A stretch of DNA of 64,000 nt from Haloterrigena sp. KLK7 (lineage in GTDB: Archaea; Halobacteriota; Halobacteria; Halobacteriales; Natrialbaceae): the NCBI RefSeq assembly GCF_037914945.1, contig NZ_CP149788.1, positions 1 through 64,000 on the forward strand, in the 5' to 3' direction. The translations under genes and the position numbers were made by a program. The notes under the pieces are model-generated. The model was not told where the DNA came from. It did not search any database and was given only the letters and a program-made list of their open reading frames with translations. Positions 8,618-11,502 of this stretch are shown in pieces. Every line of letters starts with the position of its first letter. Positions within the stretch are counted from its first letter, which is position 1.

Positions 8618-10150
8618 CTAGCAGGATTTCTTGTTGGTTTCTTTGTCCTTTTTCTTCTCTTTCTTCCCGCCCTTTTTGCCTTTCCCGTCGTCGTCATCTG
8701 CGTCTTCGTTGACAGCACTCGCCTCGGCCACCTGCACATTTTCGTTCAGCTGGAAGTTCAGCTGTTCCGCCACTGCATCACCGTTGTCAGTAGCGTACGC
8801 AATCGCTCCGTGCTGTTCGTTGACGTTCAATTGCTCGACGAACTGTAGCTGGTTCACTTCGGCGGCAGCCACTTGTTGTGCAGTCTCGTTCTCTCCGTTT
8901 TCGTAGGCGATCGCCCACGACTCGTCGCCGTTTGTATCCTCCCCGCTTACTGCTGCGGCCGTGCTGCAGTGGGAATCTTCAACGTTCAGTCCCTCCGCCG
9001 ATGCGACCTGTGCATTGAAGTTCCCCTGGTAGCTCTTCTGGCGAGCCGTCGCGTTGCTGTCGTTGATTCCGACAGCGACCGCGGCATTCTGTAAGCTGAT
9101 ATTCTCCTGCCCGACGCTCTGGACCTGCGTGATATCCGCGGACGCGTCCTGCGTGTTCGACTGGCTCGAGCCGTCGTCCGACCGGTTCATCTTCTCGTCC
9201 GAGAGCTCGCCGACCATATTCGCGCTAGCAGTGACTTCGTCGACCGACATCGAATCGAAGTTGATCGCAGTGGCGTCGGCAACTTGCTCGTTATGGTTGA
9301 ACTGGGAACTCACCTGATACGCCTCCGCGACACTGTCGCTGCCGACGGCAATCGCGATGGCAACACCCTGTTCGCTCACATTGAGCTGCGAAACCTCCTG
9401 TGACTGTTCGACTGATGTCTCCGCGTCTTGGTTGTCAGCGTCACCGATGTTCACCGCAGCGGCCTCGGCGTGCTGGTAGTTCTCATTTGCCTGTTCGCTT
9501 TGCTGATACGCTCGGACGCAGCTACCATTGTGAGCGATAGCGATGGCAGTGCTCTGGCTGCTGTAGTTGTACTGGTCGACCTCCTGCGTCTGCTCGATCG
9601 TTGCTCGAGCGGACTGCTCGCTCTGGTAGGTATCCTCGCTAACAACCCAGCCGTTGAACTTCCGACATTCGGTCTCTTCGGCGAAGACGACGTATACGTT
9701 GCTGGCATTGGTGAACGTCTCGCTGTTCGTCACCTCATCGACGTTTACCGACTTGGCGCTCCCATCCTGAGTGTTGCTGTTGTTCTGGTCGGTCTGCTGA
9801 CTCGCCGTCGCCTCGCCGCCGTCGAGGGCAATACTGACGGCGTTGCCCTGCTGATTGACGTTGAGCTGGGAAACGTCCTGGTACTGGATGACCTGTGCGG
9901 TGGAGTCCTGTGATCCTGCGGCGATCGTGTCTTTGTGATCACCGACCCATGAGTCGAGCTCGTCCTCCGATGCATCGGCCCCGAAGATTAGGTACACGCA
10001 GTCACCGTTGACGTCGTGAGTCTCGTCTGAGTCCGCGTGCGTGCTGCCGGTCGCCGCACCGAGCGCGCCGACGCTGAGTCCAGTCGCTGCGATTCCTTTG
10101 AGGTAGCCTCGCCGCTTCATTTCGTCGTGGTTCTCGTGATTTTCTGCCAT
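8618..10150 (-). CDS. Tat-exported protein with five curlin-like Q/N repeats
   Basis: A 510-residue secreted protein. Residues 11-40 form a Tat signal (MKRRGYLKG, hydrophobic core, ending near THAD). Five repeats of about 58 residues lie near 82-140, 180-237, 244-299, 336-392 and 425-482. Each has two half-units: Q-x-Q-x-V-x-Q-x-N-x3-Q-x2-A-x-A-x-A, then Q-x2-x-Q-x-N-x-N-x-Q-x-A-x-A-x-A-x-N. Regular Gln/Asn ladders alternating with small residues recall the curlin repeats of CsgA/CsgB amyloid subunits. A second internal duplication pairs CVYLIFGADASEDELDSWV (51-69) with NVYVVFAEETECRKFNGWV (151-169). The C-terminus is an Asp run, then Lys-rich, ending in Cys. I infer a beta-solenoid or amyloid-like surface structure; no function is established. 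Confidence 0.88.
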   Translation of the reverse strand: MAENHENHDEMKRRGYLKGIAATGLSVGALGAATGSTHADSDETHDVNGDCVYLIFGADASEDELDSWVGDHKDTIAAGSQDSTAQVIQYQDVSQLNVNQQGNAVSIALDGGEATASQQTDQNNSNTQDGSAKSVNVDEVTNSETFTNASNVYVVFAEETECRKFNGWVVSEDTYQSEQSARATIEQTQEVDQYNYSSQSTAIAIAHNGSCVRAYQQSEQANENYQHAEAAAVNIGDADNQDAETSVEQSQEVSQLNVSEQGVAIAIAVGSDSVAEAYQVSSQFNHNEQVADATAINFDSMSVDEVTASANMVGELSDEKMNRSDDGSSQSNTQDASADITQVQSVGQENISLQNAAVAVGINDSNATARQKSYQGNFNAQVASAEGLNVEDSHCSTAAAVSGEDTNGDESWAIAYENGENETAQQVAAAEVNQLQFVEQLNVNEQHGAIAYATDNGDAVAEQLNFQLNENVQVAEASAVNEDADDDDGKGKKGGKKEKKKDKETNKKSC

Positions 10151-10431
10151 GACGCGATTTAATCGATGAGAAGAGATTATTCTGTTATTTACTCTATTAC
10201 GAACAGAATTGTCTGTCTACCGTGTATTTGAAAAACTGCAACTGGAGATGACCATAGTAGGTACCGATTAGGTCCAGTAGATATCGCCCTCTCGATCAAC
10301 GTCATTAGCGGACCACTCGATGCCTTCTCACGAGCGTCTGCGATTCTTATTTTCGGGGGTAGCTAATGGAATTTAGTAGTCGGTTGTCAGACGCAAAATT
10401 TATGAGGGCAAATGTAAACTGGTATGGACAT

Positions 10432-11502
10432 ATGGATAACTCTAATTCGGTGGGGCGGAGAACAGTTCTGCGGGGGACTGCGACCCTCGGAATCGCCAGT
10501 ATAGCTGGGTGTTTTCGTTCTGACGCTAGTGAGAATGGCGAGACTGAAAATGAGTCCGTATCTTCTTCCGACAAAACTGACTCCGATCAAGTCAACAATG
10601 ATGATGGTGGCGCGTCGAAAAATGGAGGAGAAGATGAGTGGTTCGAGAATGGGGCGGTCACATTCATCTATGACGATGGACCGAACGACGATCTAGAACA
10701 AGCATTTCCGGCACATGAGACGTATGACGCGCCAGCGACAGTCGGCATCGTCTCCGAGTGGATGAGAGGGAACGACGAGCGGTGGATGAATGCTGACGAG
10801 GTGACGAGACTCGCTGATGCCGGCTGGGAAATTGCGTCCCACACAGCCACCCATGTAGCGGTCACCTCGTTCAACCTCGTTGAGGACGTGTCACCGGGCG
10901 ATGACCGTATCTACCCCGAAGGACGAGGTCAGCACGGGTTCTTGCTGGGGGATCCAATTGAAGTCACTGATGGTGAGAAGCTCGTACAACGGACGGTCGT
11001 TGAGTCGGATGACGACGATATTGGGCGCTACTTAGAGCTTGACGAGCCGATCGATACCTCGTTCACCGCTGAAGAGACAGTCGAGCGGTATACGGAACCA
11101 TTCGTCCGCAGTCAGCTCGCTGATTCGAAGAAGGCGTTAGCAGAATTCAGCCCGACGACGTTTTTAGCCCCGCACGATGTCATCGATGATCGGCACCTCG
11201 ATATCGTCCGAGAGTACTACGAGGGCGTGTTGAATGTGAATCCCGGTACACCAGTGAACGATATCCCGTTTGATCCATTCGACACGAACCGAGCGTACTT
11301 TGCCGAACACGTCGATCGAGATCAGGTGTATGCTGACCTCACACAGATCGCTGAAGAGAATGTATATGGCGTTCTCGGTGCCCACACCCATCGTGAGGAA
11401 GTGACACAGGATCGCATCGCGGAAACACTTGAGTGGTGCGACGAGCTCGGCATTGAAGTGATCACGTTCGAAGATGCGATCAGCCGAAAAGCTGCTTACT
11501 GA
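10432..11502 (+). CDS. Tat lipoprotein polysaccharide deacetylase (NodB-like)
   Basis: A 356-residue exported enzyme. The start at 10432 gives a clean Tat signal: GRRTVLRGTATLG, then a lipobox IAGC with Cys27, so it should be lipid-anchored outside the membrane. A Ser/Asp/Asn-rich linker runs to about residue 70. The NodB region follows: YDDGP (motif 1, Asp81/82) and SHTATH (motif 2, H137 and H141), the metal-binding pair. The middle has an unusual insertion with GDRIYPEGRGQHGFLLGDPIE before the barrel resumes at FLAPHDVIDD. It likely removes acetyl groups from envelope or biofilm polysaccharide. The coding DNA is more AT-rich than neighbours and an IS-type hairpin follows directly, suggesting transfer. 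Confidence 0.85.
   Translation: MDNSNSVGRRTVLRGTATLGIASIAGCFRSDASENGETENESVSSSDKTDSDQVNNDDGGASKNGGEDEWFENGAVTFIYDDGPNDDLEQAFPAHETYDAPATVGIVSEWMRGNDERWMNADEVTRLADAGWEIASHTATHVAVTSFNLVEDVSPGDDRIYPEGRGQHGFLLGDPIEVTDGEKLVQRTVVESDDDDIGRYLELDEPIDTSFTAEETVERYTEPFVRSQLADSKKALAEFSPTTFLAPHDVIDDRHLDIVREYYEGVLNVNPGTPVNDIPFDPFDTNRAYFAEHVDRDQVYADLTQIAEENVYGVLGAHTHREEVTQDRIAETLEWCDELGIEVITFEDAISRKAAY

Follow-up and report, generated by a model that had tools for sequence, protein, structure and literature searches.

A conserved haloarchaeal family of secreted five-repeat proteins with Gln/Asn ladders and a predicted long-armed beta-arch fold

The question raised by this locus is whether a secreted haloarchaeal protein with repeated Gln/Asn ladders belongs with the curlins CsgA and CsgB, to which a first-pass annotation had likened it, or represents a structural protein of another kind. 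The window referred to below is the whole 64,000-nucleotide stretch of Haloterrigena sp. KLK7 DNA that was analysed, and all features given are on its minus strand unless otherwise stated.

The open reading frame and its repeats

A complete ORF with an ATG start (8618-10150) was identified, from the ORF call and family comparison, as encoding a secreted five-repeat protein of 510 aa, which matched the earlier description of a Tat signal followed by five repeats with two Q/N ladders each. The protein starts with a Tat-type signal, MKRRGYLKGIAATG (aa 1-40, 10031-10150), recognised by its sequence motif (K-R-R-G-Y-L-K-G), and R13 and R14 were invariant across 14 orthologues. Alignments also indicated a conserved N-terminal motif, G-D-x-V/L-Y-L-V-F-G-A-D (aa 48-75, 9926-10009), which lies outside the repeats and is a possible cap.

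The five repeats, of 53-58 aa and with two ladders apiece, extended over aa 85-137, 179-235, 241-298, 334-390 and 426-480. Repeat 1, delimited at aa 81-137 (9740-9910) from AlphaFold2, ladder counts and a scan of the window, had predicted strands at aa 85-101, 104-109 and 113-137. Strands predicted by AlphaFold2 in the other repeats were at aa 179-207 and 211-235 in repeat 2 (9446-9616), at aa 241-269 and 274-298 in repeat 3 (9257-9430), at aa 334-362 and 366-390 in repeat 4 (8981-9151) and at aa 426-454 and 458-480 in repeat 5 (8711-8875). Repeat 3 follows repeat 2 after a 5-aa linker, and repeats 4 and 5 are each preceded by a 35-aa linker. Among aligned members the repeats kept a fixed length and so did the linkers (41, 5, 35 and 33-35 aa), the 41-aa length of linker 1 (aa 138-178, 9617-9739) being found in 14 of 14 orthologues. 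In alignments this linker holds V-Y-V-V-F-A-E...F-x-G-W, and the recurrence there of V-Y-L-V-F-G-A from the N-terminal motif suggests that a small non-ladder element was duplicated.

In consensus, the first arm of a repeat reads A-x-I-x-Q-x-Q-x-V-x-Q-x-N-x-(N/S)-x-Q-x-x-A-x-A-x-A and leads into a turn, after which the second arm reads A-x-A-x-Q-x3-Q-x-N-x-N-x-Q-x-A-x-A-x-A-x-N. Ladder motifs in the repeat region numbered 20 against 0.67 expected from shuffles and Q/N pairs at i,i+2 numbered 34 against 19.4, with none of 10,000 shuffles reaching either observed count; Q/N pairs at i,i+1 were scarcer than chance (10 vs 19.5). Ten two-ladder cassettes (Q-x-N-x3-Q / Q-x-N-x-N-x-Q) were present in the ORF; when the 64-kb window was scanned in all six frames, the only other match was a lone, chance-like one. 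The 510-aa protein matched no sequence family in Pfam, NCBIfam or the PDB; similarly, no solved structure was matched in sequence by the family profile, or credibly by the protein itself.

The C-terminal tail, which had been described as odd for being Lys-rich and ending in Cys, does exist (aa 481-510, 8621-8710) but was rejected as a special feature. It is a low-complexity, Lys/Asp-rich segment with a net charge of just +2, its length ranging from 6 to 61 aa among orthologues with one that nearly lacks it, and Cys is the last residue in only part of the orthologues. With regard to csg secretion genes, the neighbours scanned beside the ORF encode a deacetylase, a sodium:solute symporter and a histidine kinase. 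A polysaccharide deacetylase-like protein (Polysacc_deac_1; 10366-11502, plus strand) is encoded divergently from the ORF and has a Tat signal followed by a lipobox-like Cys; its gene grouped with no gene in the other loci compared.

Family distribution, export signals and neighbouring genes

Of 293 genomes sampled within the order, 62 carried relatives, chiefly in Natrialbaceae and two further families, and a sample of 247 genomes from the phylum contained none outside the order. Named hits fell in Natronococcus, Haloterrigena, Halalkalicoccus, Haladaptatus, Halogranum and Halocatena. Further relatives were carried by large plasmids, among them those of Natronorubrum and Haladaptatus, under annotations as hypothetical or PGF-CTERM proteins (the latter given by NCBI to two plasmid-borne relatives). 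No relative was encoded in viral contigs, and BFVD gave weak fold matches only. Repeats matching those of the window protein were present in the aligned homologues and numbered five in the full-length members among them. In an alignment across both of the clades described below, the members of which were 38-79% identical to the window protein, 76 columns were invariant (28 Q, 15 N, 16 A and others). Gln and Asn thus accounted for 43 of 76 invariant columns (57%) as opposed to 18% of the protein (Fisher p = 7e-17), which argues that selection retains the ladders above almost all else. The haloarchaeal family is real, conserved and previously uncharacterised.

An export signal was evident, by motif or inspection, in every member examined. 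In a maximum-likelihood tree the 47 members were divided by one branch, with 100/100 support, into 21 with twin arginines and 26 without. The motif RR-x-Y/F-L/M/V was present throughout the former clade (21 of 21), with the twin arginines before a hydrophobic stretch as in Tat substrates, and a Sec-like hydrophobic signal was seen by inspection in the 26 members of the latter. This exact split of sister clades by export signal is new here and indicates that the export route can change with the repeat domain unchanged. Tat export, which the first-pass annotation contrasted with the Sec export of CsgA, is in itself unremarkable in a haloarchaeon. The window genome carries one gene of each clade, i.e., the window gene and a Sec-type gene (C1:3157134-3158564), which are 44% identical. 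A PGF-CTERM-like motif was noted at the C-terminus of five Sec-type members; PGF-CTERM is an archaeosortase anchor signal, and a cell-surface site is thus argued for in those species. The relative nearest to the window gene in the tree was from Natronococcus pandeyae (79%), compared with 72-73% for the other four genomes of the same genus, and this placement outside its own genus hints at transfer.

The Sec-type gene has, upstream of it and oppositely oriented, between one and three genes for small secreted proteins rich in Q/N. Most of these proteins are 106-255 aa long; they start with MKRxLxxxLTVAMIGSLMFMGFAGTAAA..., and in several a single ladder repeat was recognisable. By a simple rule, divergent small secreted proteins adjoined the Sec-type gene in 18 of 24 loci. 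In the window genome, two tandem, near-identical small genes encoding one-repeat secreted proteins of 127 and 129 aa (L048:7177-7956) are divergent from the Sec-type paralogue (L048:9069-10583, G000:C1) near glmS and radB. This layout is kept across the family, and the same order (glmS, small, small, large, radB) appeared in the NCBI annotation of Natronorubrum bangense. Elsewhere in the window genome lies a decayed remnant of one more small ladder protein, broken by a stop codon (L103:1570-1760; G000:C1:2134416-2134691). Among Tat-type genes, one (L086) also has a small one-repeat neighbour; no such neighbour of the window gene was found within the window, and across the Tat clade, conserved neighbours were confined to near relatives (glmS/glmU-like genes in Natronococcus). 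Judged from gene position and shared repeats, the large and small proteins may be partners.

Predicted fold and proposed structural role

AlphaFold2, run with an alignment of 14 orthologous sequences, predicted strand-turn-strand in all five repeats, with strands of 26-29 and 23-27 aa and turns of 3-5 aa as assigned by DSSP. Thus, the predicted fold was repeated and beta-arch-like, as had been expected from the ladders, and neither globular nor helical. Mean pLDDT was 56 for the full-length protein, with repeats at about 62-90, and the best model of repeats 2-5 alone had a mean pLDDT of 72.7 and a pTM of 0.68, with repeat blocks mostly at about 84-94. Taken over the best model, pLDDT within the repeats was about 85-90. 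The prediction is considered moderate since good folding was seen in the top models only, i.e., in one or two of five with mean pLDDT values of 72.7, 61, 37, 30 and 27. Centres of ladder mirror symmetry coincided with the predicted turn in 5 of 5 repeats; this symmetry was non-significant for single repeats (P 0.05-0.55) and was therefore not used as proof.

Structural matches were uniformly weak, with no Foldseek E below 1e-3 and no Z of 8 or above. The top match in both Foldseek searches was an amyloid fibre subunit, the best for the trimmed model being FapC 9u4u (E 5.5e-3; VIA Z 2.8, 86 residues). Other weak matches included CsgA 8c50 (Z 3.1, rmsd 2.5 A, 96 aligned; Z 5.3, rmsd 8.4, 95 aligned), the SufB/SufD beta-helices (Z 5.6-7.2) and beta-solenoid adhesins. 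From these matches, on which the choice of arch over hairpin rests, the long arches are predicted to stack with their two sheets facing each other, which as modelled would be an unusual, long-armed Q/N-ladder architecture.

We give an even chance to the reading that the protein is a secreted haloarchaeal surface or matrix structural protein of stacked long Q/N-ladder beta-arches, possibly one that builds fibres or sheets. In favour of this reading are ladders that exceed chance and are conserved, the invariable number and length of the repeats, the strand-turn-strand prediction, the export signals, the PGF-CTERM-like ends of some Sec-type members, the small-protein neighbours of the Sec clade and the fold matches, while the weakness of those matches, the small number of good models, the lack of a small-subunit neighbour in the window and of a conserved neighbourhood across the Tat clade, and the non-significant mirror symmetry weaken it. 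For the window (Tat) member, a surface or matrix structural role is likely, at a location that we infer, and polymerisation of the predicted arch stack is plausible. The protein would be exported by Tat, probably in a folded state, and each of the five repeats would form a very long beta-arch consisting of a strand of about 26-29 residues, a tight turn and a strand of about 23-27 residues. The arches would stack in register, with alternating Gln and Asn forming hydrogen-bonded side-chain ladders inside the stack and with acidic residues and flexible linkers on its outside. The open beta edges could take on further copies of the same protein or, alternatively, the one-repeat small proteins encoded beside Sec-exported paralogues, and such additions would yield a fibre or sheet of cross-beta type, as with FapC and CsgA.

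Clearly short of an even chance is the alternative that the protein stays a monomer and does not polymerise, serving at the surface as an adhesin, spike or scaffold of beta-solenoid-like form with ends capped by the conserved N-terminal motif, linkers and tail, in which case the ladders would stabilise a single molecule in brine. A defined monomer is suggested by the fixed repeat count, the conserved N-terminal motif and the constant linkers, a folded soluble state is implied by Tat export, and beta-helix adhesins and SufB/D are among the structural matches; however, the conserved tandem one-repeat secreted proteins beside the sister gene resemble added subunits and the best Foldseek matches, although weak, are fibre subunits. 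More tentative still, and on balance doubtful, is the proposal that archaea have a dedicated fibre system of their own, separate from both curli and Fap, in which the five-arch protein, Tat-folded or Sec-unfolded according to clade and in some species anchored through PGF-CTERM, would act as base or nucleator for one-arch secreted subunits that polymerise into Q/N-ladder fibres. That the repeats form long antiparallel beta-hairpins in one flat, giant single-layer sheet, instead of two-sheet arches, is improbable. The DSSP pattern and short turns also fit a hairpin, and arches seldom have strands of such length, but the structural matches are two-sheet solenoids and amyloids, with up to 130 residues aligned, and stacking Q/N ladders typify parallel in-register stacks.

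Relation to curlin and other fibre proteins

Curlin repeats are units of about 23 aa with seven-residue N-psi-psi-Q kernels and QX10Q spacing (PMC10192328). In the window protein, QX10Q spacing was below chance (3 vs 5.2 expected) and the kernel was near chance (5 vs 2.5), compared with counts for E. coli CsgA of 7 vs 0.8 and 10 vs 0.4, respectively; curlin-spacing scores were also strong for CsgB and for a true archaeal curlin-repeat protein (L049). The comparison with the Pfam Curlin_rpt profile that the first-pass annotation had proposed was negative for the protein (E up to 1), for 14 family members, namely the protein and 13 aligned relatives (E up to 10), and for the window genome, with the E. 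coli control above the cut-off, and hhalign of the repeat profile against CsgA/B repeats yielded no hit (probability 0.1-0.7%). The likeness to curlin held for the Q/N ladders and the predicted strand-turn-strand repeats and failed for curlin in the strict sense. Descent from a true CsgA/CsgB homologue gained by archaea is very hard to credit, since the general ladder logic, the weak CsgA structural match and the existence of true curlin-repeat proteins in the same genus are set against these profile, spacing and hhalign results and a repeat length of 57 vs about 23 aa, on which grounds curlin membership was rejected. The protein may work like curli without being a curlin member.

One archaeal protein with curli-like repeats was described by Dueholm 2012 (PMC3521004). 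In genomes of the same genus (G001-G004), loci L049-L052 encode Sec-secreted proteins of about 207-245 aa with near-perfect 19-aa true curlin repeats (N-D-A-D-V-D-Q-R-N-x-A-x-V-x-Q-D-G-K-N) that pass the Pfam Curlin_rpt cut-off. These resemble the window protein in genus, secretion and Q/N ladders but differ in their repeats and show no sequence kinship with it, and none of this type was found in the window genome.

The Fap operon includes a dedicated outer-membrane secretion apparatus. The architecture of fixed repeats and linkers is closest to that of Pseudomonas FapC (PMC12392863, PDB 9u4u, 9nqd), which likewise has fixed-length imperfect repeats with linkers and conserved Asn/Gln, in stacked cross-beta layers such as are predicted here, whereas FapC has three Greek-key repeats of another motif as opposed to five simple predicted strand-turn-strand repeats, Tat export and an archaeal host. 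Homology to FapC was undetected in a search of the PDB, which includes FapC entries, with the family profile at E up to 10. CsgA/CsgB (PF07012, PMC10192328, PDB 8c50) stack strand-arc-strand repeats with inward Gln/Asn ladders, an arrangement like that predicted here and with a weak structural match, but combine N-psi-psi-Q and QX10Q in repeats of about 23 aa with a curli secretion system. The window protein instead has Q-x-N-x-N-x-Q cassettes in repeats that are about 57 aa long, and its predicted strands, at 23-29 aa, are about four times longer. That archaea do use arch-based layers is evident from the sheath protein SH of Methanospirillum hungatei (PMC10593813), also secreted, in which several beta-arches connect two large sheets and a giant cross-beta layer is built; as compared by description, SH differs in its cap domain, aromatic-rich non-ladder core and antiparallel strands within sheets.

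Biofilms of Haloferax volcanii are stained by amyloid dyes, and the sole determinant proposed in the study concerned, HVO_1403, was put forward on the basis of homology to a Sulfolobus amyloidogenic protein (PMC4180959). The present family supplies specific, cloneable haloarchaeal candidates, namely a large repeat protein and putative small partners, and can be put to the test as a possible surface or matrix fibre of archaea. Beta-arches whose arms reach 23-29 residues, roughly four times curlin's seven-residue motifs, would be instructive for the physics of Gln/Asn ladders in high salt, and a Tat-exported member would naturally lend itself to testing if cross-beta building blocks can exit the cell already folded. 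An independent fibre system, if real, would supply a candidate molecule for the matrix that binds amyloid dyes in haloarchaeal biofilms.
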